A stretch of 33,167 nt of DNA from a virus. The stretch covers positions 1 to 33,167 of IMG/VR virus record IMGVR_UViG_3300049846_001173. One strand, 5' to 3'. The notes beneath the pieces are model-generated. The model had not been told where the DNA came from and did not search any database. It was given only the letters and a program-made list of their open reading frames with translations. Shown in pieces: positions 1,278-31,343 of the stretch. The position numbers were made by a program, and so were the translations under genes. Each line of letters opens with the position of its first letter. Position 1 is the first letter of the stretch.

Positions 1278-1937
1278 TTATCTACGCACCACGGGCCCCG
1301 CAGGATGCCACTCAACCGGGCCGTCCTCGCCCACAAACCTGCGCGCACGACGTACCACCGTGTGCCCCACCAGCGATTCCCCCGCAGCGTGATCCACCAG
1401 CGACGGCCACGTGTACCACGACTCGTATCTAGCCAGATGAGCCCAGCGACCGATACGCATATCATCCGGAACCCCACCAAGACGATCCCCTTCGGCAATC
1501 ATCGGCTCGATAGCGTGCACCGGCAGTACCACCGCTAACCCCCACGACAACTTCGGCCCCACAACCCACGCCGCCCCGACACTATCCGCGCGGCGCGCAA
1601 GACCTGCCCACACTGTAGGAGCAGGCCTCACGTCTCCGAGATACAGCGAAACGACAGCGCGCGGATACACCCACTCCAGCCCATCCGCGAGCATCCCCAA
1701 CAGCCCCGGGCACACCAGCGCATCATCCTGTAGCACCAAATGCCAATCAGCTTCCGGATCGTGCATCATCCACGCGGACCGCGCATTAGCCCACACGCGA
1801 TCATGACTACGCGTCGGGCTGCCCAGAGCATCCCACGAAACCGGAACCTCCCCCGGACTGCGCCCCAACCGCATCAGCATCCGCTGAACCTGCGCGTGCC
1901 TATCAGGATGTGCCATCACGGAGACACTCAGCCTCAC
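1278..1937 (-). CDS. GT-A-type glycosyltransferase-like protein at the end of the tail operon
   Basis: A 219-aa protein opening with a Rossmann-like strand (MRLSVSVMAHPDRH). It has HLVLQDDALVCP at about 66-77, where the acidic DDA (71-73) occupies the place of the DXD metal/nucleotide-sugar site of GT-A enzymes. The overall layout recalls GT25-like transferases. The GTG start at 1937 overlaps the stop of the preceding minor tail gene (GTGA), with GGAG eight bases upstream, so the two are translationally coupled. Glycosyltransferases at the tail end of actinophage structural operons are known to glycosylate virion proteins; which protein this one modifies is unknown. It is the last gene before the terminator. 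Confidence 0.7.
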   Translation of the reverse strand: MRLSVSVMAHPDRHAQVQRMLMRLGRSPGEVPVSWDALGSPTRSHDRVWANARSAWMMHDPEADWHLVLQDDALVCPGLLGMLADGLEWVYPRAVVSLYLGDVRPAPTVWAGLARRADSVGAAWVVGPKLSWGLAVVLPVHAIEPMIAEGDRLGGVPDDMRIGRWAHLARYESWYTWPSLVDHAAGESLVGHTVVRRARRFVGEDGPVEWHPAGPVVRR

Positions 1938-11578: not shown

Positions 11579-13087
11579 CTAGGCCGGTGCGATCGTCGTA
11601 ACAGTGCCAGCCGACCCCTTGTATTTGAGTGCACCCGACTCAACGTAGACCACTCCGCCGCCCGAAGGCGTCCCGGAGGGCGTCGACGTCGCATTCGCAA
11701 TCGCTAGCACGCCAACACCGGAACCGAGGGACGTCGTGTTGATCCGTAGCGATGTGGTTGCCTGAAAGGCCCCATCGGTTTTCACGACACCCGGGTTTGA
11801 CCTGTACATATTGGTGTCAGCTAATGTCCCGTTGCCGAGTGTGATAGTGCCCCCTCCTGTACCTAGGGACGTATCGAGGCGTATCCGACTAGTGGAATCG
11901 CCTGTCAAGCGGATATCCACGGCCCGCTTAGAGTCCGAGGACGGGTTGATGACCAGCACTCCGAGAGTCGCGGTTCCGTCTGCTGTGGTTGCGATCGTGC
12001 ACGCCGTGTTCCCATCACGTGTGACATTCAGGCCGTCCGCAGTCCCTGAAGTGCCGCCAATCGACACAAGGCCCGTGCCCCGATCGACAGCGATCGGCGA
12101 ATCAAGGAAAACCCCAGTGTCGTCGTATCGACGGAGCTGGAAATCAGCATCGGTAGATGTGACCCGGAGCGCCCAGCGCCTATATGCGGTATCGCCCTCA
12201 TGATCGAGGGAGAACATGATTTGCTTATCGTGCGAGTCGTTGGCCGATAGACGCAGCTCCTGGCCGTTCGAGCAGCGCACCACGAAATCACAAAGGTTAG
12301 TAGCGACCAGCGTCTTATCCAGGCCAGCTATAGCGTTCGGATCATTCGGGTCTCCGTACCTCACTTCAAAGCGCGTCTGTATCGCGCCACCGCTATCCGG
12401 CGTTTCCACCGACCAGTGCTTGTGGAGGCTCAACCCGTCGTTAGCTTCCCAGTGCGCGCCAGCCCACACAACCGGCACGAAATCCCCTACCGGGTCCCCG
12501 TTACCGTCATACCCGCCGTCTGGGAAGTACCACGCGTGCATGATCTTCGCGTTGGCCTTCATCAGGAAGTGCCGTATCGACTCGCCCCACGAATAGAAAT
12601 TCGCCCGCTGGTATGAGTACAGATTGATACGACCAGTGCTGTCATAGTGCGCCGGGTTCCCGTCATCGTCCCCGCCGAGGAAAGACGACAAAACATCAAG
12701 GCCAGTATCGATCGCCGCCGTAGGGCCAATCGGATACCCAGGACTCTCCCCAGTCTGATTGATCTGAAGCGCGCCGGTCATCATGTCCCCAGCGATCTCC
12801 ACAAACGGCCCACCGCCAGCCGTAGACCATTCCTCGCTCTCGCCCTGACCTACGGGGCCAACAAAAATCCAATACGTGTCATACCCGTCTGGTACATAGA
12901 ACTCCAGGACGCCAGTTACCGGATCAGTCACGGTTGGGTTCGGCAACGGGACCGTGAGCCCCGCGTCCGCGTAGATCGTCGCAAGAAGGTTCGTGTCACC
13001 AGGGCCGAAAACAATCGCACGCTGATTCGTCGCCAGAGTGCCCGCGCCGTCCGGATACCACCACTCACGCTCATAGTGTGCAGCCAT
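11579..13087 (-). CDS. Fibre/receptor-binding protein 2
   Basis: A 502-aa protein. Residues 1-80 share a conserved module with the 925-aa fibre (EWWYPDGAGTLATNQRA, then FGPGDTNLLATIYADAGL and VPLPNPT), which I read as the virion attachment domain. Residues 105-330 form a middle region rich in Asp and Trp. The C-terminal third is repetitive beta sequence (TRDGNTACTIATTADGTATLGVLVI) ending GGGVVYVESGALKYKG, a frequent phage fibre C-terminus. The start is ATG 13087. It lies between head-tail connector genes rather than after the tape measure, so it may be a head or neck fibre. Confidence 0.75.
   Translation of the reverse strand: MAAHYEREWWYPDGAGTLATNQRAIVFGPGDTNLLATIYADAGLTVPLPNPTVTDPVTGVLEFYVPDGYDTYWIFVGPVGQGESEEWSTAGGGPFVEIAGDMMTGALQINQTGESPGYPIGPTAAIDTGLDVLSSFLGGDDDGNPAHYDSTGRINLYSYQRANFYSWGESIRHFLMKANAKIMHAWYFPDGGYDGNGDPVGDFVPVVWAGAHWEANDGLSLHKHWSVETPDSGGAIQTRFEVRYGDPNDPNAIAGLDKTLVATNLCDFVVRCSNGQELRLSANDSHDKQIMFSLDHEGDTAYRRWALRVTSTDADFQLRRYDDTGVFLDSPIAVDRGTGLVSIGGTSGTADGLNVTRDGNTACTIATTADGTATLGVLVINPSSDSKRAVDIRLTGDSTSRIRLDTSLGTGGGTITLGNGTLADTNMYRSNPGVVKTDGAFQATTSLRINTTSLGSGVGVLAIANATSTPSGTPSGGGVVYVESGALKYKGSAGTVTTIAPA
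12994..13030. repeat. 37-bp direct repeat, copy 1 (fibre 2 N-terminus)
   Basis: A 37-bp stretch identical to 16962-16998, in the same orientation. It encodes part of the shared fibre attachment domain (TNQRAIVFGPGD). DNA identity is higher than in the rest of the domain, which suggests recent duplication or gene conversion between the two fibre genes. Confidence 0.85.
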
Positions 13088-14268: not shown

Positions 14269-17046
14269 CTAGAATTTCAGACCAACAAGCGGCGCGTCAT
14301 TATCAGCAAGCACACCAATTGCCGGAAGCGCGCCAGAAACACCGGTCTGGACAAACGCGTTGTTCCACCCGGCACCCGACCCAGACGGGAACGTTGTGTT
14401 CGACACAATCGGCGACAGCCCCGCAGCGTGACGCAACGTGGGCGCTGCAGTTTGCCCCACGATCGCCAGATAGTACGGAGCGCCACCAGACAACGCCAAT
14501 GCGAACGCCACCGTTTTCGTGCCTGTCGTATCGGCTGCGGTCGTCCCGTTATCGACCAACGGAGACCCAGTTGGCAGGAGTGTTGTTGCGTCCGCCGCAT
14601 AAACGCCAGTCCGCACAACCGCCGTCGCGACGTTGCCACTCACCTCAAACGCCAAACCGGAAATCGTCGCGTCCGCAAGAAGCCAAAACGGAATCAAGAA
14701 CATACTGTTCAGAGTGGCCGCTTTAGACGACCGCACAAATGGCACACCACCTACAGGCACATAACCTGTAGAACGCGGATAGACAGAGAAGCTCCGCTGA
14801 TACTGCCAGGCAACCCCGTTAGTCTGCGCTGAATCAGCCGCCAGAACACGACCATTCGCGCCTACGCCCTGACGCGCGACCGTCGCGGAAGCCGTAGCGA
14901 CATACAAGTCGCCCTTGGTGGTGAGTGTCGACAAGGCGGGCGAGCCGATATCGGAAGGCACCAAAACAACCGCGCCAGTTTTACTGTTCACCGACGTGAC
15001 AGGGGCTGAGATGAGCGCCGCACCCGCCGCGCTACCAGTCAGCCGGCCGAGCGGGTAGAAACGGGCCTGCGTAGTATCGGCCAGGTTCGTCGCGTCTTTC
15101 CGGACCGCCATTACAGCTATAGGCAGAGCGTTAGCCAGATCCGGAGAGGTGACGAAAGACGCCGTCCCGATAGCGGCTACAGCATCATCGATAGTGTTGT
15201 ACCACTCTTGTCCGTACTGAATGTTGACGCCAGTTGTGCCCACGTTCGGGAACAGGAAAATTCTCTGCAGCGTCGCCCGAGAACCGGCACCAGGGATAGC
15301 AGTGATCACGCCGGCATTGTCGTAACTGCCCGGTATAACTGTGGTACCTAGCGCGCCCAGACTACCCGCTAGCTGCGTCGCGTACCGAAAACTTTGCGTA
15401 GCTACCGTGATTGTGTTGACAATGTTGGGGCTTTTCAGGTCGACAGCGACGTTCCCGCCCGTGAGGAAAACTTGGCCGGACGCGCGCCCAAACGTCAGAG
15501 TCGCAGGGTTGGGCGTGATACTCAATCCGGACATCACGAACGGGCTTAGAGAGCGCATGAGGTCAAGAGTCTGTTGGAAAGGGTGGTGTGCGAAAAATTT
15601 TGTCGGGTCGACCCTGGTGATAACTCCACCAAACTGGATCGTGCTACCTAGGATCAGTAGGTCGCGTCGCTGTTGGGCGGTAACGGTCGAGTCGATTTGC
15701 ACGATCGTCGATGTAGCGTCTACCGCCCACGTAGTTACCAGACGGGCGAGCGATGCTGGTGTCATAGACAGCCCAGTTTGGGCTGGAAGATCGATACGCG
15801 TAACGGTCGGATTAGTGGGATCGGTAGTCGAATCGACGATATAGCCAAAAATAGCTGAAATGTTGACCTTGGTCGGATCAGCGTTGATCGTCACATTGCC
15901 GCCAGAGACAAGCCCAGTCGAATACTCCGAGACGGCCATCTCCATGACGTTCTGAGTGACCGTCTTATAAGACAAGGTTGTTGCACCCTGGACAGTCAAA
16001 TCGCTGGTAGCGCCAGAAAACAGGACGTCCCCAGTGATCGTGCCGCCCGTGAGCGGAAGCGCACCCACATCAGTAGCGTCAAGAACAACCGCACCCGTCT
16101 CGCCGTTAACTGACGTAACAGGAGCCGTTGCAGGAATCGCCCATTCCAGGCCGGTAGAGGTAGCCGAGTTGGTGGTGAGTACTCGACCATCAACGCCAGG
16201 AGCCAACTCCGCAGTAGTAGCTGCACCTGTACCCGCGTAGATACCTCCCTTCTGGGTGATGGTGGAACGCTGTTGAGCGCCGGTAATTCTGGAGTCATCG
16301 CCCGCCGCTACCGTTCCCGCTGTCGTACCAACGTTCAAGGTTGCGCTGTTACCGAGGCCTAGATTCGTGCGCGCCGTAGCAGCACTAGCGAGATCAGAAA
16401 GGTTCGAAGCTTTCTGAAGCGATGTAGCCAGAACCGCCGCCGCGCTACCGGCAGGATCAGCGCCAACATCGGCAGCGTCAAGAGTGACGTTGCCCGTCTC
16501 GCCGTTAACTGACGTAACAGGCGCTGAAGGCGCGGCCTGCCACGCCGCCGTGCCGCCCGAAACAGTGAGGATCTGCCCCGCACTACCGATAGGCAGACGA
16601 GTAGTAGCGTTGTTGCCCGTCCCGATATATAGATCTCCTGCCGCGTCGATCGTCGCTATAGGTTGACTCGCGGCGGCGGCGGCGGCGGCGGAGCCGGCAG
16701 GATCAGCGCCAACATCGGCAGCGTCAAGCTGAACGTTTCCAAAACCATCTGGCCCTTCGCCGTTTACGGCCAGGACAGGATCGCCTGGAGCCGCCCCCAG
16801 CGTCACCTCAACCCCGTTGCCGCCAGTGGACGGCCCAACCCATATCCAGTACGTACCGTCAGCGGCGTAAAACGTGAGAACGCCCGACCCGTCTGTCGTA
16901 GTCGGGTTCGGAAGCGGGACCGTGAGCCCAGCATCAGAGTAAATAGAGGCAACGAGATTGCTGTCACCAGGGCCGAAAACAATCGCACGCTGATTCGTGG
17001 CTAAAGAACCGTTCGGGTAAAACCACTCTTCCGAATACAGAGTCAT
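14269..17046 (-). CDS. Long fibre protein 1
   Basis: A 925-aa protein from ATG 17046 (GAGAGG seven bases upstream; the longer TTG-initiated frame lacks one). Residues 1-80 are the attachment module shared with the 502-aa fibre. After this come repeated fibre units: VNGEGPDGFGNVQLDAADVGADPAGSAAA, two copies of PVTSVNGETG followed by V.LDA.DVGA, and later PVTSVNSKTGAVVLVPSDIG. The ASNLSDLASAATARTNLGLG block is common to tail fibres. The last 200 residues (GGAPYYLAIVGQTAAP..LVGLKF) form a probable receptor-binding tip. It may be a tail fibre or, given its location beside the capsid and major tail genes, a head fibre. Confidence 0.82.
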   Translation of the reverse strand: MTLYSEEWFYPNGSLATNQRAIVFGPGDSNLVASIYSDAGLTVPLPNPTTTDGSGVLTFYAADGTYWIWVGPSTGGNGVEVTLGAAPGDPVLAVNGEGPDGFGNVQLDAADVGADPAGSAAAAAAASQPIATIDAAGDLYIGTGNNATTRLPIGSAGQILTVSGGTAAWQAAPSAPVTSVNGETGNVTLDAADVGADPAGSAAAVLATSLQKASNLSDLASAATARTNLGLGNSATLNVGTTAGTVAAGDDSRITGAQQRSTITQKGGIYAGTGAATTAELAPGVDGRVLTTNSATSTGLEWAIPATAPVTSVNGETGAVVLDATDVGALPLTGGTITGDVLFSGATSDLTVQGATTLSYKTVTQNVMEMAVSEYSTGLVSGGNVTINADPTKVNISAIFGYIVDSTTDPTNPTVTRIDLPAQTGLSMTPASLARLVTTWAVDATSTIVQIDSTVTAQQRRDLLILGSTIQFGGVITRVDPTKFFAHHPFQQTLDLMRSLSPFVMSGLSITPNPATLTFGRASGQVFLTGGNVAVDLKSPNIVNTITVATQSFRYATQLAGSLGALGTTVIPGSYDNAGVITAIPGAGSRATLQRIFLFPNVGTTGVNIQYGQEWYNTIDDAVAAIGTASFVTSPDLANALPIAVMAVRKDATNLADTTQARFYPLGRLTGSAAGAALISAPVTSVNSKTGAVVLVPSDIGSPALSTLTTKGDLYVATASATVARQGVGANGRVLAADSAQTNGVAWQYQRSFSVYPRSTGYVPVGGVPFVRSSKAATLNSMFLIPFWLLADATISGLAFEVSGNVATAVVRTGVYAADATTLLPTGSPLVDNGTTAADTTGTKTVAFALALSGGAPYYLAIVGQTAAPTLRHAAGLSPIVSNTTFPSGSGAGWNNAFVQTGVSGALPAIGVLADNDAPLVGLKF
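16671..16691. repeat. (CGG)7 microsatellite in fibre 1
   Basis: Seven uninterrupted CGG units on the plus strand encode a run of alanines (GSAAAAAAASQP) at the end of the first fibre repeat. Expansion or contraction would stay in frame and change only spacer length. Confidence 0.9.
16962..16998. repeat. 37-bp direct repeat, copy 2 (fibre 1 N-terminus)
   Basis: Identical over 37 bp to 12994-13030 and in the same orientation. It lies in the sequence coding for the shared attachment domain of the two fibres. Flanking DNA is similar but diverged; for example, an upstream CGGGACCGTGAGCCC block is also shared. Confidence 0.85.
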
Positions 17047-17077
17047 GCGCGTACCTCTCAGGGCTAGCAAGATGAGG

Positions 17078-18697: not shown

Positions 18698-20389
18698 TTA
18701 GGCGCAGCATCCGACGACACCGGACGGGTCAGCAATCGCCGTGTACAGGCGGCTCACTGGGCACGTCTGGATAACGTTGAAGCCGTCCTCAACGAACACG
18801 GCGGTGTACTCGTTACTGGTCAGCAACGCGTTGTCGTAGATCGTGTCGAGGTTCACGACCGGCTGAACGATCTTTGTCCACGTGCCTGCCGGGTAGATCA
18901 GGAACTGCACTGTGGTAGGCAGCGCCGTGAGCGGGCTCGCCCCACCAGGCCCGGTGTTCAGGCCGGTGTAAGAGTCTTGCCAGTCGTACACGAAACGAGG
19001 CATCGCGGAACGAACAGCGAACCAGTCGAACACCGCCTGGTCGGTGACGTCCAACCGGCCGATACCGTAACGGCGCGCCAAAGCCGCCCGCATCTGGGTA
19101 AGCGCCCAGTACGGGAGAACAACCTCAAGAGTCACGTCTCGACTCATGCGCTGCGAGTATTTGATGTCCTCGACCGCCAGATCAACAGCGGAAAGGATTC
19201 CAGACGCCGCATCATCGCCGGCACCGTCAGCCGGGATAACAGTAGCCGCGCCGGACGCGGCAACGATCCTGGCGATAACCGACGCGTTGACCTTGTGACC
19301 CAGGGCCTTGATAGCTTCCTGCGTGAACAGCTCCACAACCTCTGGGTATGTGCGGCGCTGAAGCAGCGAACCCGTAAGACACAGATACGCGGCGTCGAGT
19401 CGAACATCCTCAAAGTCAGGGCACGGGATCTGGAAGCACTCTTTCAACGACCCGTTGATGATGTCGTACTCGGTGAGAATGACATCACCCGCGTTACCGA
19501 TACCGTCCCACACAACCGAGAAGTCAGGGCCGCCGTTGGCGGGCACGTTGAAACCGCCGCGCGCTGCCTCAATCTCAGGCAGGTCAAGCAGACCATCCAT
19601 GCTCGACAGGTCACACAGGTTGTAGATGCTCTCACTGGGTGCGCACCAGCCGATAGCCGCCGTGAGCGCCTTTCCGGCCTTCATCTGCGCCTGAGCCGAA
19701 GCGCGAAGAGAACCGCCCGGAAGGCGACGCTCCTTGGAAGCAAACGCCTTTACGCGCTCGACTTCAGCCTCAGAACCCGTGGTGATACGCAGTTCCTCGG
19801 GGAAGTTCCGCTGGAGACGCACCGCCCCGTGACGCACATACGAGCGGCCCGAAACATCCAGAGAGAACATGCCCCCAGTACCGGCCGGTGTGGCCGGAGC
19901 CTCGGGTGCACGTCCCTTTGGGGCAATCTTCACGTACGAGCGGAGCCGGTTCGTTACGGCCTCAACAGCCTGCCCGAAAGAGGTAAGCGGTTGGCCTCCA
20001 GGCATGTTGGGGACGTCCGGGGCGGTGTACATGGTCGCGCCACCTGCGGGTGCGCCTGGTGCGGGCTCGTCAAGGGTGGAGCGACGCACAGTCGCGACGG
20101 TGGCCGTGACTACGGCAGGTTCCTCGGCCGGAGCCGGCGCGGCTTCCTCGGTCTCGGTTGTCTCGGGCTCGGCCACGGTCGCGGCAAGCTCAGCGGCGAG
20201 AGTGCTGGCCTGCGCGCGGCGGTCTTGCTCGGCACGCAATGCGGCGAACGCGTCGCGCGCTGCGGTAAGCGCATCGATGTCGTTGGGGGTTTCCGTGATG
20301 ACTTTGTTCGCGTGCGCGCGGGCCTCGGTTACGAGGTTCCCGAGTTCGTCGGCGGAAAGCTCGGTCAGGGATTCTGGGAGCGTGAACAT
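18698..20389 (-). CDS. Major capsid protein with fused N-terminal scaffold-like domain
   Basis: A 563-aa protein from ATG 20389 (AGGAG seven bases upstream; the longer frame lacks a ribosome site). Residues 1-80 are a coiled-coil-like helix (FTLPESLTELSADELGNLV, ALRAEQDRRAQASTLAAELAATV), then a Pro/Ala/Glu-rich linker to about 135. This is the delta-type scaffolding segment normally removed by the maturation protease, and no separate scaffold gene is present. Residues 180-550 look like the HK97 shell domain (VILTEYDIINGSLKECFQIPCPDFEDVRLDAAYLCLTG, LEVVLPYWALTQMRAALARRYGIG, TVQFLIYPAGTWTKIVQPVVNLDTIYDNALLTSNEYTAVFVEDG). It ends GVVGCCA. Confidence 0.9.
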   Translation of the reverse strand: MFTLPESLTELSADELGNLVTEARAHANKVITETPNDIDALTAARDAFAALRAEQDRRAQASTLAAELAATVAEPETTETEEAAPAPAEEPAVVTATVATVRRSTLDEPAPGAPAGGATMYTAPDVPNMPGGQPLTSFGQAVEAVTNRLRSYVKIAPKGRAPEAPATPAGTGGMFSLDVSGRSYVRHGAVRLQRNFPEELRITTGSEAEVERVKAFASKERRLPGGSLRASAQAQMKAGKALTAAIGWCAPSESIYNLCDLSSMDGLLDLPEIEAARGGFNVPANGGPDFSVVWDGIGNAGDVILTEYDIINGSLKECFQIPCPDFEDVRLDAAYLCLTGSLLQRRTYPEVVELFTQEAIKALGHKVNASVIARIVAASGAATVIPADGAGDDAASGILSAVDLAVEDIKYSQRMSRDVTLEVVLPYWALTQMRAALARRYGIGRLDVTDQAVFDWFAVRSAMPRFVYDWQDSYTGLNTGPGGASPLTALPTTVQFLIYPAGTWTKIVQPVVNLDTIYDNALLTSNEYTAVFVEDGFNVIQTCPVSRLYTAIADPSGVVGCCA

Positions 20390-20464: not shown

Positions 20465-21313
20465 TCAGCTATGCGGCCATGTGATGATCCGCGAGACTCT
20501 CGGTAGGGGCTCATCTAGTGAGACGACAGCGTGATCGGGGTATGAGTGCGCGGCCGCGTTCATCTCGGCGCTATCCATCGCGAGGATCTGCGATGCCTGT
20601 TCGTGCACGGTTCCTTTCAGCGCGGCCCCGTTACGGTGGTAGCCGACGAAACCAGCGTGATATGCCCTGGGGCGACACGCGTAAGCAACCTGTAGGCCGT
20701 GCTTCTCGGCTATCCGGTTCAGCAGGCCATCTTGTTCGGCGTTGCCTTCCGGGATCGTCGAGTGGGGGAAAGTTTTGCGGCAATACGCGATGGGCGCGCG
20801 GAAATACAGCGGCGCTAGATGCGGCAGTATGCGGCGTAGTTGCTCAGGTCTAAACGACACGCCGATCGATTGGTACTGGTGGTCGAGGTATACCGCATCG
20901 TCGTGATTGGGCGGGTCGCTCCGGTAGTTCTGGCTACGGCACCCCGAAACGGCGAAAACATCTGGCGCTGTCTCGTGCGCTGATCGATGGAACTGGAAGT
21001 AGTCGCGGGATACAAGAACGTCCTCTTCAACTAGGTGAATCAGGTCAGTTTTCCAGGTGAGTGCCTCACGATACGTGTCGAGGATGTTGAAGGAGTTGCC
21101 GGCAAAGCGGTGGTTTTTGCCGATCAGACGAACGCGATCGTGACCCATACGCGCCGCGAACTCGTACGCGACCTGCGCAACATCACGCGTGTGCCCACGA
21201 TCCAAACTGATCCAGTACGTCAGGGACGGATCGTCGGCCAGAGTAAGCCGATGCAGGCACGCGGCGAGAAACGCTGGCCTGCGCCACGCGGGAACAATAA
21301 CGATCTCCGTCAT
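20465..21313 (-). CDS. GT-A glycosyltransferase (virion glycan cassette)
   Basis: A 282-aa protein from ATG 21313, chosen because it overlaps the upstream stop as ATGA; GTG 21322 is possible. It begins MTEIVIVPAWRRPAFLAACL, a GT-A nucleotide-sugar fold opening. LIHLVEEDVLVSRDYF (about 91-106) contains the EEDV that takes the place of the DXD motif, as in GT13-like enzymes. Further on are GVSFRPEQLRRI and GNAEQDGLLNRIAEKHGLQVAYACRPRAYHAGF, where the acidic EQD may be catalytic. It is the last gene of a four-gene cassette placed just before the capsid gene. It presumably transfers a sugar to a virion protein or extends the glycan; the acceptor is unknown. Confidence 0.85.
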   Translation of the reverse strand: MTEIVIVPAWRRPAFLAACLHRLTLADDPSLTYWISLDRGHTRDVAQVAYEFAARMGHDRVRLIGKNHRFAGNSFNILDTYREALTWKTDLIHLVEEDVLVSRDYFQFHRSAHETAPDVFAVSGCRSQNYRSDPPNHDDAVYLDHQYQSIGVSFRPEQLRRILPHLAPLYFRAPIAYCRKTFPHSTIPEGNAEQDGLLNRIAEKHGLQVAYACRPRAYHAGFVGYHRNGAALKGTVHEQASQILAMDSAEMNAAAHSYPDHAVVSLDEPLPRVSRIITWPHS

Positions 21314-21945
21314 GGTAGGCACTCTAGTAGCCGGTCAACATCACGGTTGCTCGCGAAGTAGTCGGCCCATTTGAAATTGCCTCCAGCTACGCGCCGATGA
21401 TGCAGCCGCATAGTCGGGATTCCCCACGCGTCGGCGACTATCAGTCCGTGCAGGCTGGACGAGGCGATCGTGTGGCATGAGCCGATAGCGTCAATCACGG
21501 TATCGACGGGTTCAGAGGCGTCGATCACGAGATCCGCCCACGGGTAGGTGCGCTTGTCTATGTAGTGGCGTACTACCCCTACCCGGTGGCGGCCCATGGG
21601 CCGCCTATAGATGTGCGGCACGAGGTATCCAGGATCGCAGGTAGGGACATCGACCCCAATTAGTCGCGCTGTGAGTGGACCCCGTACCGCGCGAACATCA
21701 AGCCGTGACACATCAACTGCTTCGCCGTCGCGCATCAGCCCAGAACCCCACACGACCGTGTCGTCGCGCGCTTCACGAGAAGCGGCTTCCAGGATAGATC
21801 CGCACGCGATCAAGTCGGCGTCGGCCATCGACTCGACCCGCCTAACCTCATAGCCGAGACGCTTCAGGATGGCGGGACCGAGTTCGTCGCCAAAGTTCTG
21901 GACTCCCTCGGACCACGCCCACACGGCAAGCTCGCCTCGCCTCAT
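21310..21945 (-). CDS. Polysaccharide pyruvyl transferase family protein
   Basis: A 211-aa protein with the family's motifs in order: N17-FGDELGP, CGSIL (49-53), VVWGSGL (64-70), RGPLTA (88-93), DPGYL (104-108) and the signature SSSLHGLIVADAWGIP (162-177). In these, Ser/His-Gly residues bind phosphoenolpyruvate or the acceptor. Such enzymes place ketal-linked pyruvate on sugars of capsule, EPS or cell-wall polymers. It is shorter than typical members of about 300 aa or more, lacking part of the N-terminal GT-B-like lobe, but the motif set is complete. It is coupled by ATGA overlaps to both neighbours. In a phage it would make a pyruvylated, negatively charged glycan; that product is inferred. 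Confidence 0.85.
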   Translation of the reverse strand: MRRGELAVWAWSEGVQNFGDELGPAILKRLGYEVRRVESMADADLIACGSILEAASREARDDTVVWGSGLMRDGEAVDVSRLDVRAVRGPLTARLIGVDVPTCDPGYLVPHIYRRPMGRHRVGVVRHYIDKRTYPWADLVIDASEPVDTVIDAIGSCHTIASSSLHGLIVADAWGIPTMRLHHRRVAGGNFKWADYFASNRDVDRLLECLP

Positions 21946-22505
21946 ACGCGGAACACCAACACGCCAGTGCTGAATCCGTCGCCTTCGCGGGTGACGATCC
22001 GGTATGGGATTCCTTCGCTGTCTAGGTGCGGAACAAGCAGGTGGCCCTTGACGACTTCTTGAGAACTCATGTCCACGTCATCGACGATGATCAGGCCAGG
22101 TGAACGCAGAATCTTTCGAGCCACAAGGAATTCGTCTAGCGTCCGTTGCGCGTCGTTCGCGCCGTCGAGAAGCACCACATCAACCTTTCGCGCGGTACGT
22201 CCACGCGCCGGACCCATCCGCCGTATGACCTGGAGCGAATCTTCTTCAACTAGATCAACATACGGGCTGAGGAAGAAGTCATCTAGGACTGTTTGCGCAG
22301 TACTAGTGTCGATATCGACGCTAGTGATACTCCCGCCGTGCTGTTGCACGCGGCGTGCGAAAGCCACGGTTGACCATCCGTCGCCCCGCTCATAGTTAGA
22401 GGTAGCCCCGCGAATGGTGCCTATTTCTAGGATGTCGAGCGCGTCTTTTCCTGTCTCAGTGGCGAAGCGGTCAAGCTCGGCCGTCAAAATCTCCTGTAGA
22501 AACAT
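21942..22505 (-). CDS. SAM-dependent methyltransferase (class I)
   Basis: A 187-aa protein with a Rossmann methyltransferase core: motif I ILEIGTIRG (25-33) and acidic SVDID (62-66) for the ribose of SAM. These are followed by VDVVLLDGANDAQRTLDEFLVARKIL (108-133) and LIIVDDVD (138-145), a layout typical of small-molecule and sugar O-methyltransferases of the MT_24/CmcI type. No DNA- or protein-methylase motif (NPPY/DPPY) is present. It is flanked by glycosyltransferase and pyruvyl transferase genes and coupled by a 4-nt overlap, so the likely substrate is a sugar of the same glycan. A strong AGAGG precedes ATG 22505. Confidence 0.85.
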   Translation of the reverse strand: MFLQEILTAELDRFATETGKDALDILEIGTIRGATSNYERGDGWSTVAFARRVQQHGGSITSVDIDTSTAQTVLDDFFLSPYVDLVEEDSLQVIRRMGPARGRTARKVDVVLLDGANDAQRTLDEFLVARKILRSPGLIIVDDVDMSSQEVVKGHLLVPHLDSEGIPYRIVTREGDGFSTGVLVFRV

Positions 22506-22507
22506 GT

Positions 22508-23416
22508 CTATATCCTCTCTAGTAGTTTCAACGCGGTGTCGCGGAACTCCCGGTTCCTGCGCTCGAAATGCGCGCGCGCGGATCGGCTCATCCTGGCCAG
22601 CTCATCAGAAGGGATCGAAACCGCTCGACGCATAGCGTCGCCGATCGCTTGCGCGCTCACGGAATGCACTTTCACCATGCCATGGGGCGACGATTCCGCA
22701 GGCGGTATCAGGACTCCCCATCCAGGGCGGGCGTGTTCGTTCATGGGGGATGCGTCGGTTGTGAGCACTACAGCTCCGACGCTGAGAGCTTCGGTGATGT
22801 AGTGTCCCCACCCTTCCGCGCGTGACGGGCATACGTGGTACGTGGCTGTGTTCATCTCGCGTCGTAGGTCTTCGTCTGATATGCGCCCCAGGACGCGTAC
22901 ATAGTGCGGTACCTCTAGCGGCACGGCGGAGATGATCGTTAGTGGGGGCAATGACGGATCGGCCCGCCACGCATCGATAACTGCTTGAGTGTTTTTGAAG
23001 TCCGAGTGCCCACGTAGGTGTAGCGCCGTGGGTTGCCTGGGAACTGATAGGTCTTCTAGATCCCGTGAGGCAAAACCCGTGAAGTTGTTGTTCCGTAGAC
23101 GCATCCGTTGGAATGCTTCATGGCATTCGACGGACTTGGCCCACAGTTGGGTGATGCGCGGAAGGTCACGCCGCCACGCCGGCTGGAACCATTCAAGGTT
23201 GAAGATACCTACCGTTTTCCTCGCATACCTGGCCAGTCTGGGATTCCACAGTTCCAGGAAAATAGCCACATCAACGCGCGGCATGTGCGGGCGCTGCCAG
23301 TCAACCCACGTCACGGTGTGGCCTGCCGTAGACAGGATCTCTGTGAGGAGACGCATGTCTACGGTCAAGCCAACACCGTTATCCCGGCTGACTAGCGCGA
23401 CGCTGAGAGGCTCCAA
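22508..23416 (-). CDS. GT-B glycosyltransferase, GT4-like
   Basis: A 302-aa protein with the C-terminal GT4 motif CPSRAEGWGHYITEALSVGAVVLTTD (196-221), in which E201 and E209 form the E-X7-E pair binding the nucleotide sugar. The N-terminal half has VALVSRDNGVGLTVDMRLLTEILSTAGHTVTWVDW, a GT-B acceptor domain opening. It starts at TTG 23416, supported by AAAAGG seven bases upstream and by closeness to the 44-aa gene. It is the first gene of the cassette and probably initiates or builds the virion glycan. It has no TM segment, so it would work in the cytoplasm on assembling virions. Confidence 0.88.
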   Translation of the reverse strand: MEPLSVALVSRDNGVGLTVDMRLLTEILSTAGHTVTWVDWQRPHMPRVDVAIFLELWNPRLARYARKTVGIFNLEWFQPAWRRDLPRITQLWAKSVECHEAFQRMRLRNNNFTGFASRDLEDLSVPRQPTALHLRGHSDFKNTQAVIDAWRADPSLPPLTIISAVPLEVPHYVRVLGRISDEDLRREMNTATYHVCPSRAEGWGHYITEALSVGAVVLTTDASPMNEHARPGWGVLIPPAESSPHGMVKVHSVSAQAIGDAMRRAVSIPSDELARMSRSARAHFERRNREFRDTALKLLERI

Positions 23417-23419
23417 CTG

Positions 23420-23554
23420 TCAGCCTTTTTGCACGATCGCGCCCGGATGCTTAGCGGCGAACGCGTTCGCTTGAGACTCCGAGGACTTCGACACTTTCAG
23501 CCCACCAGGCAATGTGACGATCCACCGTTCGCGTTTCTTACCGCAGCTACACAT
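23420..23554 (-). CDS. 44-aa CxC protein
   Basis: A small gene read from the sequence: ATG at 23552-23554 overlapping the protease stop by one base (TGATG), and TGA at 23420-23422. The product starts MCSCGKKRERWIVTLPGG and continues LKVSKSSESQANAFAAKHPGA. This compact basic protein with an N-terminal CxC pair and a short beta hairpin-helix layout looks like small conserved proteins found near capsid genes of actinophages. The function is unknown; metal binding or capsid association is possible. Confidence 0.75.
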   Translation of the reverse strand: MCSCGKKRERWIVTLPGGLKVSKSSESQANAFAAKHPGAIVQKG

Positions 23555-25281
23555 CAGACAGCCCTCCCGATCAGGTCCCGGAGTTCACGCCAATGACTAG
23601 CCGAGATCTCCCGTTCTAGAGCGACCCTAGTCGACTGGGCGGAGGTCGCCTTGGCGAGTTCCTCGCGCACGAGGCGTTCAGCTGTCGCTCGGAAAACTTC
23701 CGCTGAGTCTGGTGCCTCGACCACGGTCGGGGGCATGAGTGACGCCGTGAGCGCGACTTGACGCCCAGCCGCGAATCCCACGCGCATACGAGGAATCGGG
23801 AACCCGGGGCGGCTTGACTCTGGCGGCCCTGGTTCTAGGGCAAGCACCTCGATCAGCGATAGGCCGTTGACGGTTTCGCGCCAGTCCCCGGACACGGCGT
23901 GTTCACGTACGATTCCGGCCGGAGTTGGGATTGTCACCTGAGGAACGGGCTTGTCTGTGACGAGTGGTCCGCATACGAAAATCCCGTGCTCGTCTTCGGA
24001 AGCCACGACATACGCGATGGTCTCCTTCTGGTCGTAGACCTGCCGTACCTGGGACGCTTGGAGGCTTCCGTCACGTGACGCATGGTCGCCGCCCAGTGTG
24101 ATACGGCCCGCGTACACGGTTCGAGCATCAGTTTCGACCCTGTGGACGTGGAAATCGCGGTAGTTGCCTTCGCCAGCGCGCGGGGCGAGCACACACGCGC
24201 CTTTGATCCCTTCGTGGCATACACCCCAGGGGGCGATGTGCCCGTAGACCTGCCCGCGCTCGTAGTCGTAGCGGATAGGTATCGGCCGGTCAGGGGTGAC
24301 TGGTGGGACGAAAAGTGCGGAGTCGAACACTGTTCCGACTGTGGCGGTGATCGCCGACGCTTCTTCCATATCCGCAGATTCGTCTTCCCGGTCGAATGGG
24401 CATTCTGGCCAGTCCTCGAACTTGCCGCGTACCGTCTCGTACAAGGAACAGATGCGGCTCTTGATTGCGTTCTTGTCTTCCTCGGGGAGATCAGTAGCGT
24501 CTACCCCCCGACCACCTGCGGTCGCTGCTACACCACGGGGGATGATCCGCAGTTCCCCGTCGACGAGGTCCGCGAACCCTAGGCGATAGTCACCACGGAG
24601 GGTGCCGTCACCGTCAACCCACAGGAAGGCGCGCGCGGCGCGTTCCCGATCGACGCTGCCATCCTCAGCCGAGTAGGCGTCGAACACCCGTTGCGCGGCA
24701 CCAGATCCGTCCCACTCGTGCTCGCGGTCGTCAACGACGGGAAGTTCCGTGTCACCCGCTAGGGAAGCTGTGATGGCCTCAGGCCGCTCGTCGAGGAACT
24801 CCATAGAGTGATTCGTCTCCACGAACGCCGGTATGCGAACGAGGGTTGCTGACCTCATGCGGCCCCGAGTGACGAGCAGCTCCACGTCCGTTTCGTCGTC
24901 TTCCAAATCGTCAAGGGAAATCGGCGCGTCTGTTCCTGCGCGTACGGGCATCGCGTCAAAGTCGTCTAGGTCAACGGACGGCCCCACGACGCCTTGCCGG
25001 GCAAGGAAAAGTGCCGATTTCGCGTCTTCCAGGATCGATGCAGTGATACCGGGGTCGGACTCATCGAACACTTCGCCGGTCACCCACACGTCAGTGCCGG
25101 ACATTTCCACGTCGGTGATTGTTCCCACAGTTACAGCGCCGTCGTGTCCTTCCCCGTCCGACCGCACCCAGCCCAGTGGCATTGGTAGTGGCTGGTGCGT
25201 GAGCGCGTCGGCGGCGAACCTCCGCCGGTCACCTGTTGATGCGTCGATCGGGCAAGCCAGCACCCGAAATCTGATACCCAT
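23554..25281 (-). CDS. Capsid maturation protease
   Basis: A 575-aa protein placed between the MuF-like gene and capsid genes. The N-terminal 170 residues (LACPIDASTGDRRRFAADALTHQPLPMPLGW, SILEDAKSALFLARQGVVGPSVDLDDFD, RSATLVRIPAFVETNHSMEFLDE) follow the prohead protease pattern of actinophages. A middle domain (EHEWDGSGAAQRVFDAYSAEDG to VDLPEEDKNAIKSRI-like, about 200-290) recurs in protease fusions. The C-terminal half (GHIAPWGVCHEGIKGACVLAPR, DFHVHRVETDARTVYAGRITLGGDHAS) is the extension seen in the long actinophage version, where it is probably structural. It should process the capsid protein's scaffold domain. The exact active-site residues cannot be proved from sequence alone. Confidence 0.8.
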   Translation of the reverse strand: MGIRFRVLACPIDASTGDRRRFAADALTHQPLPMPLGWVRSDGEGHDGAVTVGTITDVEMSGTDVWVTGEVFDESDPGITASILEDAKSALFLARQGVVGPSVDLDDFDAMPVRAGTDAPISLDDLEDDETDVELLVTRGRMRSATLVRIPAFVETNHSMEFLDERPEAITASLAGDTELPVVDDREHEWDGSGAAQRVFDAYSAEDGSVDRERAARAFLWVDGDGTLRGDYRLGFADLVDGELRIIPRGVAATAGGRGVDATDLPEEDKNAIKSRICSLYETVRGKFEDWPECPFDREDESADMEEASAITATVGTVFDSALFVPPVTPDRPIPIRYDYERGQVYGHIAPWGVCHEGIKGACVLAPRAGEGNYRDFHVHRVETDARTVYAGRITLGGDHASRDGSLQASQVRQVYDQKETIAYVVASEDEHGIFVCGPLVTDKPVPQVTIPTPAGIVREHAVSGDWRETVNGLSLIEVLALEPGPPESSRPGFPIPRMRVGFAAGRQVALTASLMPPTVVEAPDSAEVFRATAERLVREELAKATSAQSTRVALEREISASHWRELRDLIGRAV

Positions 25282-25283
25282 GA

Positions 25284-26102
25284 CTACCTCCTGGCCTTGG
25301 ACTGCCGGTTGCTGAGATCGATGCTTTCGCCGGGCTCAACTAACAGAGTTGTGCACCGGCATTGAATCGTGTTGCCTGCGCTGCCCGATGGGTCGCCGGG
25401 GAACATGAGTGGCTCGCTACCGACGATGAACGGATCGGTTAGGCCGACTCGCTGTCCGTCGGCCGCGCGGTGTGCTGGTCTAGTACGCGAATCGACAGTC
25501 GCGAGCCAGATCCGCTCCAGCTCGTCGCCTGTTTCCTCGGCGTAGGCGTTGAAGGCGTCGGTGCGGCTTGCGTTAAGCGCTCCGAGTGTTTCGGTGCGGG
25601 CGATGACTACAGCCCGGTTAGGCCAACGTTCACTTTTCGTGGTTGATAGAACATTATCGACGCGATCGGCTAGTGCTGGGATGCCTTCCCCGAGTGTTAC
25701 GCCCGCCGCTAACTGACCAGTGACCAAGCCGAACACTTCTTCCGGTATTCGCAAGAGACGATTACGCACGCCGAGTAGATAGTTTGTGATGCTTCCCCGC
25801 TCTCGCCAGCTGAAGCCTTCGCCCATCAGGCCCGCATACGCCCAGTCCATAACGGGAACGATCGCGGTTTCAATGATGCGCGTGACCGCCGTGTCCCAGG
25901 CTGGTGTCTGCGTGAAGACTTCCTCGGGTTGCGGCATAGGTCCGCCGAGTATGCGCCGTAGCGTGGTAACGAGCCACGCGGAGAGTTCCTCCCACACTGT
26001 GGCGTAGACGAGATTCTCGGCCGTTTGTGCGCGTAGGAGGTTGTTTACGCGTTCGGGTAGCCACGGGTCTTCTCCGTGGCCGTCCCACACGGGGCCGGTC
26101 AT
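25284..26102 (-). CDS. MuF-like minor head protein
   Basis: A 272-aa protein. The C-terminal MuF domain (about 168-255) shows ARTETLGALNASRTDAF, then LERIWLATVDSRTRPAHRAADGQ, then FPGDPSGSAGNTIQCRCTTL, the classic Arg-rich and Cys-containing motifs of SPP1 gp7/Mu F proteins. The N-terminal half is helical and likely contacts the portal. MuF proteins are minor head components that interact with portal and ejected DNA. The ATG at 26102 overlaps the portal stop (ATGA). No toxin domain is fused at its C-terminus. Confidence 0.93.
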   Translation of the reverse strand: MTGPVWDGHGEDPWLPERVNNLLRAQTAENLVYATVWEELSAWLVTTLRRILGGPMPQPEEVFTQTPAWDTAVTRIIETAIVPVMDWAYAGLMGEGFSWRERGSITNYLLGVRNRLLRIPEEVFGLVTGQLAAGVTLGEGIPALADRVDNVLSTTKSERWPNRAVVIARTETLGALNASRTDAFNAYAEETGDELERIWLATVDSRTRPAHRAADGQRVGLTDPFIVGSEPLMFPGDPSGSAGNTIQCRCTTLLVEPGESIDLSNRQSKARR

Positions 26103-27922
26103 CTCAGTGTCCGTAGCGTCGCGTCTAGGAGGTCATCCTGGTGCGGTATCCCGTGTGTGAGGAGCTCCACGCAGTACATTTCTAGATGGTCTCGTAGCGC
26201 ATCTGGATCTAGTCCGAGTCGTGACGCTAGACGCGGTACGTGATCCCACACCCCGGTCAGTGCGGTGCGCGCGGTGGAATCGGTGACGGGTCCGACAGTC
26301 AGGTGAGCCTCGTAGGAGATGCCCGTGTATGGGTGACGTGAGCCTATGCGTGCGAGTCTGCGTCCGGCTATTTCTAGTGCACGTAGCACGGTCGCTTCGC
26401 ACGCGGTAGCGACTAATACCGTGCTAGACGCTTCCGCTTCCGGTGTTGGTGGCCCGTCGTTGATACCTTCCGGCATGTCTTGCGTCTCGATATCGACGGG
26501 TTCGATTGCCTGCGTGGGCGTTGGCTGCGGTGATGCACTGGTTGATATGCGCATACCGATGGCTTGTTGTACTCCGGGGTCGGTGAGTAGCGACGGATCT
26601 GAGGCCACGGCCCGGAAGAGCAGCATTTTGAGGCGTTCGTCTTCGTTGGGCATCTGATCGGCTCCGAAAGCCGACGCTGTGACAGCGACTTCGTCAGTGA
26701 TGAGGTACCGGTCCGAGAGCTGCAGGGCTTCGGCGGATCTGTTGGGGCGAACTGCTAGCGGGGCCGTGTCGAACGCGTATGCGTAGCGTTCTGGGTTTTC
26801 GATTCCGGCTTCGTTGAGGGTTGGGGTGAGGAAGCCGCGCGTGAGGGCGTCGGCGATTGTGGATAGGTACGGGCGGATCCGTTTGACGCCTTCTTCGCCT
26901 ACGGCCCACGCGGTCCAGTGGTTGGTGTCGCCTACGCCGGTGAGGATTTCTACTGGTGTTTCGTACACGGCCCCCAACCGGCGTATGGCGCGCTCTTTCA
27001 GCTCCATGATTTCGGCGCTGATGGGCGACCAGAATTGAGCGGGGTCTTTAAATTTGTCTAAATGGTCTAGTAGCGCGTCGGGGACTGTGGTCATGATGGG
27101 GACCATCGCGGACGCTTGCGACTGGTCCCTAATGTTGGTGGACGCAACGCGTTCCAGGAGGGCCATGAAACCGGAAAGGCCCTCAGGATCGCCTTCGCCG
27201 CGCGGGAAGTCGAGGCCCTCGGGCAAGAACCAGACTCCGGCCGATACGAGGCGTGATTCAAGTTCGGCGAATTCTCGCTTCGTTAGTAGCTCGATTTCTC
27301 GAAGGATAGGGATAGCTGCGCGCGTCGGCGAGTCGGATTGCAGGATCGCGTTCGGGTGTGGTCGCCATGCTCGGATGAGGAGGTCGACGCCGTCTCTCAG
27401 GGTGAGGACTCGGCCGCCGTACTGTATGGGGCGCTCGACGCTGATCAGGGAACCTTCGCGGCGTATCTGCGTTCCGCTGACTACCCACCAGTTTTTGGGT
27501 TTTCCGGTCGCGCCTTCTTCGGCGATGATCCACGATTCGCCGCCTACGACTAGTCCGGTGGCGAGGAGGCGTAGGTTGTCTTCCCGCTGCGGACCTGCCC
27601 CTAGTGGAGCGGAAGCCAGGGAAAGAATTCGAGGGTCGTCAACTTCTCCGGTTTCTTCACCGGATTGGTCTAGGTCTGCTACATACAGGCGACACTGAGA
27701 GACCGAGTCGCCGATCCAGCCTGCGAGGAAGCGGAGTTCGCCGACGACGTCGTACAGTCGCCACGCCTCGGCCTGCCAGTCGCCGATACCGAATTTCCAT
27801 CCGGCCCACGCGCTGCCGCGTCCGAGGTCGACGAGGGTTGATGATGCGGTGATTACGCGCGCTGGTTCGGCTGGTGTTGGGGGTGGAGAGGGGGAAGGTT
27901 TCAGTAATGCCATGCGCCTCAC
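26099..27922 (-). CDS. Portal protein
   Basis: A 607-aa protein. It opens with a Pro-rich tail, then AWRLYDVVGELRFLAGWIGDSVSQCRLYVAD (about 54-84). It includes the helical stem block LLTKREFAELESRLVSAGVWFLPEGLDFP and IMELKERAIRRLGAVYETPVEILTGVGDTNHWTAWAVGEEGVKR, which is diagnostic of actinophage portals. A C-terminal 130-aa extension (ATACEATVLRALEIAGRRLARIGSRHPYTGI) is also typical. It forms the dodecameric DNA channel. The start could be GTG 27922, which overlaps the previous stop (GTGA), or ATG 27913. The neighbouring MuF gene confirms the call. Confidence 0.93.
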   Translation of the reverse strand: MRRMALLKPSPSPPPTPAEPARVITASSTLVDLGRGSAWAGWKFGIGDWQAEAWRLYDVVGELRFLAGWIGDSVSQCRLYVADLDQSGEETGEVDDPRILSLASAPLGAGPQREDNLRLLATGLVVGGESWIIAEEGATGKPKNWWVVSGTQIRREGSLISVERPIQYGGRVLTLRDGVDLLIRAWRPHPNAILQSDSPTRAAIPILREIELLTKREFAELESRLVSAGVWFLPEGLDFPRGEGDPEGLSGFMALLERVASTNIRDQSQASAMVPIMTTVPDALLDHLDKFKDPAQFWSPISAEIMELKERAIRRLGAVYETPVEILTGVGDTNHWTAWAVGEEGVKRIRPYLSTIADALTRGFLTPTLNEAGIENPERYAYAFDTAPLAVRPNRSAEALQLSDRYLITDEVAVTASAFGADQMPNEDERLKMLLFRAVASDPSLLTDPGVQQAIGMRISTSASPQPTPTQAIEPVDIETQDMPEGINDGPPTPEAEASSTVLVATACEATVLRALEIAGRRLARIGSRHPYTGISYEAHLTVGPVTDSTARTALTGVWDHVPRLASRLGLDPDALRDHLEMYCVELLTHGIPHQDDLLDATLRTLR

Positions 27923-29234: not shown

Positions 29235-31343
29235 TCACACGGCGGTTAGCGCGACCGCGCGGAGAGGATGCAGCCCGTATGTGCCTGTATCCGGCTCGAT
29301 AGTGATGACCCCGTCGGCGGCGAGCCGGCGCAGTTCTTTCGATAGCCACGGGGCTTGACGTCCGACGTGCTGCCGGAATTCGACTAGCTGACTCGTACGT
29401 ACCTCGCTGTCGCCTCGATCGGCCATGGCTTGGAGCATGGCGCGGAGCGCGTGGCGTGCCTGGTCGGTGGTGAGGGGCCGCGATGGCGGAGGGCTGATGA
29501 ACGTCAGCTCCCCGTCGCTGGTCTCCTCGATCTCGATACTGGGGTCGATATCGTCGTGGAATCCGGGCTCGGGTTGTGGCGGGATGGGGAAGTCGAGGTG
29601 GTCTAGACCATCGTCGTCTGAGTCTTGGTCCATGTCTGTGGTCTCCTCGGGTTCGGTCTGGTCCGTAGCCAGCTTGTGGACTGGTAGCGCGGTGGCGGTC
29701 TGCCCCATGGTCTGCCAGATAGCGCGCCCTTCGCGCACGGCGGTCTGATAGTCGGTGTACAGACCGCCAAAAGCGGCGGCGGTGGTCGGGTCTAGTGTCG
29801 GGTTTGCGTACTGTCGGACCGCAGCGGCTAGCTCGCTGGTCTGCGTGTAGTAGGACCGCATAGGGATAGACCAGCGGTCTTCCGGCACACCGGGGGCTTC
29901 GAGGTACGAGTAGCCGGGCTTCGTGTTGCGCCACGCCCATGGGGCCGCGCCAGCTTCTATCGTGGATTCCGACAACCCATATTTTTCTTTATCGTCGCGG
30001 ACGCCGAAGCACCACATCGCGCCGAGGTTAGCGCGGGCGCTGGTGTCGATGCGGTCGTGGGTGAGGCGCTGCTGTGAGAGGACGAGGACGATACCTGCAC
30101 TGCGCGCCTGCTCGGTGAGCTGCACAAAACTGGTGCTGTCGGCGATCAGGGCAGCTGATTCTTCCATCCAGTAGACAAGGAGTTTTAACTCTGCCCCGCC
30201 TTGTGCGATCGGCAGGGCGGATCGGGCTTCCCACTGTTTGAAACCATAGCGGCCTAGCTGAGTGGTCCGCGCCGAGATTGCGACTTTCAGCGCTTTCAGT
30301 CCGGCGATTGCGGTCTGTTGGTCTGTGAGTAGTAGCGCGAGACCGGGAGCGATCGGTTCGCATGATTGCAGACCTTTGACGGGGTCTGAGTAAATGACGG
30401 ATACGTCACGGCGGGTCATCGCATCGCCCAGAAGAGCAAGGCCGGATTCGGTTTTCCCTGCCCCGCTCATGCCGGATATCGCTAGGTGAGCGAGGTTCCG
30501 CCCGGCTTTGTGGTCTCCGGGGAGCCATAGGCGCGCGGTCTCGCCGTCCTCATACATGCCGATGTTGATGGGTTCGGTGATGCTGGCTCCGGGTGCGGAC
30601 GGTCCGGGCCATGGAATGGTTTGTGCGAGCAGGTCTCTGGGTGTGACGGTGAGGGTTCCGCGTGCGGCGTCGTCTGGGTCTGGGATGACGCGGACCGCGC
30701 TGGTCCGGACCCCTAGCGCTGAGGCTAGGTTGCCGATCGAGTTTTGCACGTCGCCTATCGTGTGGGTTCCGCGTGCTACCTCGATTTCGGCGCGGACCCG
30801 GTTTCCTCCAGCCTCCAGTTCGGCTTTACGGACCCGACCGGCTATGCGGACTTTTTCGAGGAGACCAGTCTGGTCTGCGGTCTGGTCTGTGGTGCTGGTC
30901 TGCGCGATGCGGCGTATGGTCCACGCTCCGGCAAAAGCTGGCCCGATGAGTGCCCATGCTCCCCACGGCCATGGTTGGAATACGCCGCCGATCCAGGCGA
31001 GGAGGTTCCATCCGTGGCCGCTGGTGGTCTGCCATAGTCCGGACGCGGTGGCCCATAGGGTCCAGGCCCCGGCGGCGGCAGTGGTGGCGGTGGCTTGGAG
31101 TTGGATTGATTCGCCTCGGGATCGGTATACGCGGTGCGCGAATGCGGTGAGCCCAGCGGCGGTGATGGCGGAGGTTGCGCCTACGGCTACGCCTGCTGTG
31201 ACGCTGGTGGAGGCCATGGCGTGTGTGATAGTCCCTACGGCAGGCAGGGCGCCCCAGGTGGCCCAGGGGGCTATGTAGGGCCGTAGGTGAGCTGACCCGT
31301 AGTAGGTGGTGGTGTCTGTGTGGCGCGTACGACCTTTTCTCAT
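29235..31343 (-). CDS. FtsK/SpoIIIE-type DNA translocase (TraB-like)
   Basis: A 702-aa protein. The N-terminus has hydrophobic helices at about 23-68 and 85-145. The motor domain has Walker A GMSGAGKT (291-298), VIYSDPVKG (316-324), Walker B-type LKLLVYWMEE (386-395) and EQARSAGIVLVLSQQR (411-426). An acidic linker (ETTDMDQDSDDDGLDHLDFP) leads to a C-terminal winged-helix-like region (about 625-690) in the place of FtsK gamma or the TraB DNA-recognition domain. In Streptomyces plasmids such proteins pump double-stranded DNA between cells. The start overlaps the TraA-like stop (ATGA). A host-chromosome FtsK is unlikely, because the protein is too small and the neighbours are plasmid-like. A role in phage DNA packaging or partitioning is also conceivable. 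Confidence 0.87.
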   Translation of the reverse strand: MRKGRTRHTDTTTYYGSAHLRPYIAPWATWGALPAVGTITHAMASTSVTAGVAVGATSAITAAGLTAFAHRVYRSRGESIQLQATATTAAAGAWTLWATASGLWQTTSGHGWNLLAWIGGVFQPWPWGAWALIGPAFAGAWTIRRIAQTSTTDQTADQTGLLEKVRIAGRVRKAELEAGGNRVRAEIEVARGTHTIGDVQNSIGNLASALGVRTSAVRVIPDPDDAARGTLTVTPRDLLAQTIPWPGPSAPGASITEPINIGMYEDGETARLWLPGDHKAGRNLAHLAISGMSGAGKTESGLALLGDAMTRRDVSVIYSDPVKGLQSCEPIAPGLALLLTDQQTAIAGLKALKVAISARTTQLGRYGFKQWEARSALPIAQGGAELKLLVYWMEESAALIADSTSFVQLTEQARSAGIVLVLSQQRLTHDRIDTSARANLGAMWCFGVRDDKEKYGLSESTIEAGAAPWAWRNTKPGYSYLEAPGVPEDRWSIPMRSYYTQTSELAAAVRQYANPTLDPTTAAAFGGLYTDYQTAVREGRAIWQTMGQTATALPVHKLATDQTEPEETTDMDQDSDDDGLDHLDFPIPPQPEPGFHDDIDPSIEIEETSDGELTFISPPPSRPLTTDQARHALRAMLQAMADRGDSEVRTSQLVEFRQHVGRQAPWLSKELRRLAADGVITIEPDTGTYGLHPLRAVALTAV
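30879..30903. repeat. 25-bp direct repeat shared with 33037-33061
   Basis: An identical 25-bp stretch occurs at 33037-33061 in the same direction. Both copies encode the peptide QTSTTDQT, in the translocase linker and in the Spd-like protein's N-terminus. Several GGTCTG hexamers lie within it. Confidence 0.85.

Follow-up and report, generated by a model that had tools for sequence, protein, structure and literature searches.

A predicted virion-glycan cassette with a pyruvyl transferase family gene in the head operon of a phiAsp2-like actinophage

Within the window (the whole 33,167-base virus record analysed here, IMG/VR IMGVR_UViG_3300049846_001173, from a virus of actinobacteria), four co-oriented minus-strand ORFs at positions 20465–23416 follow each other almost without gaps, with a capsid protease gene on one side and the major capsid protein gene on the other. 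They encode a GT4-family glycosyltransferase, a methyltransferase (MT), a polysaccharide pyruvyl transferase family protein (PvyPT) and a GT-A fold glycosyltransferase. From the families and folds of the proteins, their conserved residues, and the order and recurrence of the genes, all read from sequence or structural models, we consider it likely that an Actinoplanes phiAsp2-like phage uses these genes as a cassette for virion-glycan assembly, which would place a methylated, pyruvylated glycan on capsid and/or tail. Sugar-coated phages are already known, and the new elements here are the pyruvyl transferase and a putative slot for exchangeable tailoring enzymes. The minus-strand gene order is portal, MuF, capsid protease, a 44-aa gene, GT4, MT, PvyPT, GT-A and major capsid protein, then further head and tail genes, and the features discussed are as follows:

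26099–27922, minus strand: portal protein (phrog_776, 1.2e-139)
25284–26102, minus strand: MuF-like head morphogenesis protein (PF04233, 6.3e-15)
23554–25281, minus strand: capsid maturation protease-like protein, upstream of the cassette (phrog_18402 head maturation protease, 8e-20)
23420–23554, minus strand: small gene of 44 aa at the protease/GT4 junction (66–70% identical in phiAsp2 and L007-L010)
22508–23416, minus strand: GT4-family glycosyltransferase, 302 aa, TTG start (PF00534, 6.8e-11; EX7E motif E201-E209)
21942–22505, minus strand: class I SAM O-methyltransferase-like protein (Methyltransf_24), 187 aa (PF13578, 4.7e-13)
21310–21945, minus strand: polysaccharide pyruvyl transferase family protein (PvyPT), 211 aa (PF04230, 8.7e-6; putative PEP residues R88, H166 and K192)
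20465–21313, minus strand: GT-A fold glycosyltransferase, 282 aa, GnT-I/POMGnT1 (GT13)-like (PF13641, 2.8e-9; E96/D98)
18698–20389, minus strand: major capsid protein, directly downstream of the cassette (phrog_777, 3.3e-128; start from alignment)
1278–1937, minus strand: phrog_854 glycosyltransferase, adjoining tail genes (phrog_854, 5.3e-39)

All four cassette proteins scored above the Pfam gathering thresholds, which served as cut-off for domain calls, and the four identities proposed in the initial annotation were thus upheld. Both glutamates of the GT4 motif (E201 and E209) are invariant in 17 homologues, and GT4 copies with 65–67% identity occupy the same locus in three related contigs (L007/L008/L010). 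The MT resembles annotated O-methyltransferases of Streptomyces phages, and is kept between GT4 and GT-A in relatives. The GT-A enzyme is placed by Pfam as GT2-like, with a profile match to GnT-I (1fo8, E 0.0034); its AlphaFold2 model (pLDDT 88) gave GnT-I and POMGnT1 as best Foldseek matches (E 1e-10, but TM 0.53), and the acidic E96/D98 motif is conserved. The 4-nt overlaps reported earlier were found at the MT/PvyPT and PvyPT/GT-A junctions (both ATGA), whereas GT4 and MT are 2 nt apart. For the GT-A enzyme, the start at ATG 21313 (282 aa) is more likely than GTG 21322, since this ATG forms the ATGA overlap with the PvyPT stop codon. The capsid gene probably begins at ATG 20389 (MFTLPES...), in agreement with relatives, and with the start placed there the gap between GT-A and capsid genes is about 75 bp. 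The position between protease and capsid genes was confirmed, with the 44-aa gene (missed before) intervening between protease and GT4; the accompanying statement that phages normally have a scaffold or nothing in this slot did not hold, as other related actinophages carry a single small gene, an HNH gene or genes on the reverse strand at the same junction.

The 211-aa protein passed the PF04230 cut-off by a margin of about 1 bit (26.3 versus 25.3 bits), with scores of 39.5 bits for its sister in contig L046 and 37.4 bits for ExoV of Sinorhizobium. Its AlphaFold2 model, built on 50 viral rows, had a mean pLDDT of 95.2, and a Foldseek search of the PDB placed the Schizosaccharomyces pombe enzyme Pvg1p (5ax7) at ranks 1–2 (E 3e-4, probability 1.0, TMq 0.54), with Klebsiella KP1_0663 also among the best fold matches and ordinary glycosyltransferases far behind. 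A sequence search of the PDB gave no meaningful matches, while tblastn of plasmids identified S. meliloti ExoV (27% identity, E 3e-6). A pattern scan of viral contigs built on the single PvyPT sequence gave no relatives, which emerged from an alignment-based search. Residues R88, H166 and K192 do not vary among 52 viral homologues and are also present in ExoV; judged by order, spacing and fold, they would be the counterparts of R148, H308 and K328 of Paenibacillus CsaB, which are critical to PEP binding (PMC10435577). The position of CsaB R306, two residues before the histidine, is S164 in PvyPT and likewise a serine in ExoV, and ExoV-type members may lack an equivalent of this arginine; for the CsaB R207 loop, the short PvyPT offers no clear counterpart. 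The protein has its family or fold and the R/H/K motif in common with ExoV, CsaB and Pvg1p, but these are longer proteins whose substrates are polysaccharides or glycoproteins of the cell surface.

The marginal Pfam score and the missing R306 equivalent, together with a length below that of ExoV (316 aa) and Pvg1p and the annotation of the phage homologue Tunturi_5 as a galactosyl transferase, would also fit a PF04230 relative that catalyses something else, for instance a glycosyltransferase-like reaction, in which case the glycan would be methylated and not pyruvylated. We regard this as unlikely, given Pvg1p as best PDB fold match with ordinary glycosyltransferases well behind, the invariant R/H/K residues and the homology to ExoV, which is described as the succinoglycan pyruvyltransferase (PMC6801904). 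By profile and model, therefore, the 211-aa protein is a true pyruvyl transferase relative, which at family and fold level excludes the non-pyruvyl-transferase identity that had been named as a refuting outcome; pyruvyl transfer would be its predicted activity.

A tree of the 52 homologues grouped the PvyPT of the window with those of contigs L046 and L047 (support 100/99), and among 80 viral PvyPT loci these two were the only ones with a phrog_854 neighbour. L046 represents an unrelated, lower-GC phage, in which a GT-PvyPT-phrog_854 trio lies amid portal, MuF, capsid and scaffold genes, suggesting that this PvyPT clade is tied to head genes and to a virion-glycosyltransferase family in two lineages. 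A recent gain of the PvyPT gene was considered and rejected by the measure of base composition, because the GC content (0.616) and GC3 (0.675) of the gene are like those of its neighbours and not foreign.

The arrangement of the remaining genes recurs in independent contigs. Five IMG/VR contigs (L007, L008, L010, L131 and L132) carry GT4-MT-GTA in the exact protease-capsid slot, without PvyPT, and this recurrence at the same position argues against a chance assembly. In further contigs GT4-MT-GTA is located about 1 kb upstream of the capsid gene (L136) or adjoining inverted portal genes (L011), is extended to GT-GT4-MT-MT2-GTA (L033), or has extra GT-A copies (L142). Comparison of these loci suggests that GT4 and GT-A are conserved bookends around a variable middle, which may consist of nothing, MT, MT with MT2, an FkbM methyltransferase with a weak sulfotransferase match, or MT with PvyPT. 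The last of these was seen only in this window among the surveyed cassettes, with PvyPT present in 1 of about 14 distinct GT4-MT-GTA records; the other records searched that carry GT4 and GT-A together, many of them fragments, contained no PvyPT in the sequence available. The survey thus gave GT4-(MT)-GTA as the conserved unit with PvyPT as an extra, and not the set of four genes, and the link of PvyPT to the pathway rests on gene coupling in this window and on the clade shared with L046 and L047.

Two other contigs gave separate observations on such cassettes. In the low-GC phage contig L028 (9270–12882), GT4 and GT-A enclose a weak sulfotransferase match, with a label that falls below the Pfam cut-off, and an FkbM methyltransferase. 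The largest such cassette observed was in the Bacteroidota-binned contig L187 (1263–6931), where GT4 and GT-A enclose two methyltransferases and a GT along with other, unassigned genes.

The proposal of virion glycosylation in the initial annotation was supported by the position in the head operon, by a precedent in Corndog-type phages and by the phrog_854 glycosyltransferase on the same contig, which probably also acts in the same glycan pathway. The latter is 29% identical to Che8 gp110 and 45% to Pas35 of phiAsp2, and Che8 gp110, Gamgam gp247 and gp36 of the Corndog-type phage Shida all belong to phrog_854. For capsid glycosylation, PMC12363180, citing an earlier study, describes Che8 gp110 and Corndog gp38 as the essential glycosyltransferases. 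Members of phrog_854 were also detected in four relatives (G001-G004) and inside a cassette contig (L032); the co-occurrence with the cassette may partly reflect lineage inheritance, since phiAsp2 has phrog_854 and GT4/GT-A were not found there.

The Corndog-type (cluster O) genes gp35-gp38 resemble those of the window in combining an O-methyltransferase with several glycosyltransferases (O-MT, GT, GT and GlcNAc-T) as overlapping genes in the head operon, and have been proposed to add methyl and glycan groups to the capsid (PMC4351075). They differ in lying in the portal-protease interval, a layout shared by Shida, instead of between protease and capsid genes, in using other glycosyltransferase families except for phrog_854, and in lacking a pyruvyl transferase. 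A methyltransferase and glycosyltransferase set among head genes was therefore known before, and the pyruvyl transferase is the part that is new. The literature searched contained no account of a pyruvylated phage virion, and a 2019 review of pyruvate substitutions has no mention of "virus", with phage appearing only as users of O-antigen receptors (PMC6801904). In Che8 (cluster F1), gp108-gp110 share phrog_854 with the window through gp110, but these glycosylation genes are located at the right genome end, with no MT or PvyPT in the stretch examined.

Streptomyces phages Satis, Kradal, JustBecause, Kela and Frankenweenie encode a GT4 and a GT-A enzyme with 46–49% identity to those of the window, likewise adjacent and overlapping. 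In these phages the pair lies just upstream of tail genes, with an O-MT homologue elsewhere in the genome, and in Satis and relatives the interval between GT4 and GT-A, upstream of the major tail gene, is empty or holds one small gene and no tailoring gene. The Satis-type records showed no homology to the head proteins of the window and no PvyPT match. The closest sequenced phage is Actinoplanes phage phiAsp2, with the capsid protein nearest to that of the window (57%), and its Pas33-Pas35 genes similarly combine a GT, a Methyltransf_24 protein and the phrog_854 GT in one operon; however, these are located after the tail genes, and the protease-capsid junction of phiAsp2 contains six reverse-strand genes. 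Pas34 (L197 10937–12727), which lies between two GTs, is annotated as a DNA methyltransferase but combines a Methyltransf_24 domain with a GT-like N-terminal region, and is probably a mislabelled GT/O-methyltransferase acting in a glycan pathway.

Pyruvate and methyl groups on sugars are characteristic of the surface polymers of bacteria, and bacterial PvyPT homologues such as ExoV work in exopolysaccharide synthesis (PMC6801904), so that the cassette could serve to modify a host surface glycan, for superinfection exclusion or receptor change, rather than the virion. This is quite unlikely, as none of the enzymes has a membrane segment (no TM-like segments in the cassette proteins, maximum KD19 1.16) and no GtrA flippase was detected in the window or in ten related records, in a search with a working control. 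The location within the head operon, the partner GT of the Che8 gp110 family and the adjacency of GT4-GTA to tail genes in the Streptomyces phages also argue for the virion as target. Phage glycosyltransferases can glucosylate hydroxymethylated bases, and the L046 GT2 that adjoins PvyPT has a weak, sub-threshold match to TAGT (TET-associated glycosyltransferase); however, glycosylation of a hypermodified base in phage DNA by these enzymes is highly improbable, as the MT belongs to Methyltransf_24 and is not a DNA methyltransferase, the genes are placed in a virion operon with a partner GT family with reported virion targets, and 11 records gave no Tet_JBP match, although this weighs little because the control was equally silent.

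For the virion-glycan cassette, we propose that late in infection soluble cytoplasmic enzymes would equip capsid and/or tail proteins with a short oligosaccharide; neither the capsid, the pentamer-like nor the major tail proteins contain a cassette-specific Ser/Thr-rich insertion as a clue to the target. The first sugar(s) may be attached by the phrog_854 GT (1278–1937) and/or GT4, after which the GnT-I-like GT-A enzyme would add another sugar and the Methyltransf_24 enzyme would O-methylate a sugar. Finally, the ExoV/Pvg1-like enzyme would form a pyruvate ketal from PEP on a hexose, probably the terminal one, giving a methylated, acidic glycan. The middle of the cassette may be a slot for exchangeable tailoring enzymes between GT4 and GT-A, which would allow phages to alter the terminal part of the glycan.

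That actinophages glycosylate their virions was discovered only recently, and such a coat might bear on shielding, stability or adsorption of the particle. If the proposed function is correct, this phage would make a charged, methylated glycan that carries a modification familiar from the surface polymers of bacteria and from an enzyme of yeast; the GT4/[tailoring]/GT-A layout could be used as a search signature to predict which phages are glycan-coated, and the bare, methyl, pyruvyl and other forms would offer a natural series for testing the effect of each decoration. We tentatively suggest that tailed phages might possess modular virion-glycan cassettes, with GT4/GT-A bookends and an exchangeable tailoring middle (O-methyl, pyruvate ketal, FkbM methyl and possibly sulfate), by which unrelated phages could give their particles sugar coats of differing charge and cap, with the window as first case of a pyruvate ketal, i.e. 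of an acidic virion glycan.

Elsewhere in the window, no large terminase was recognised among the genes, and a 702-aa protein on the portal side (29235–31343) matches phrog_24831 (unknown), with a weak FtsK/SpoIIIE-like match. Two tail-fibre-like proteins of 933 and 502 aa are encoded at 14269–17070 and 11579–13087, respectively; their genes flank the head-tail adaptor gene, an unusual position for fibres, and the N-termini of both proteins match phrog_24355, which is labelled polysaccharide deacetylase.
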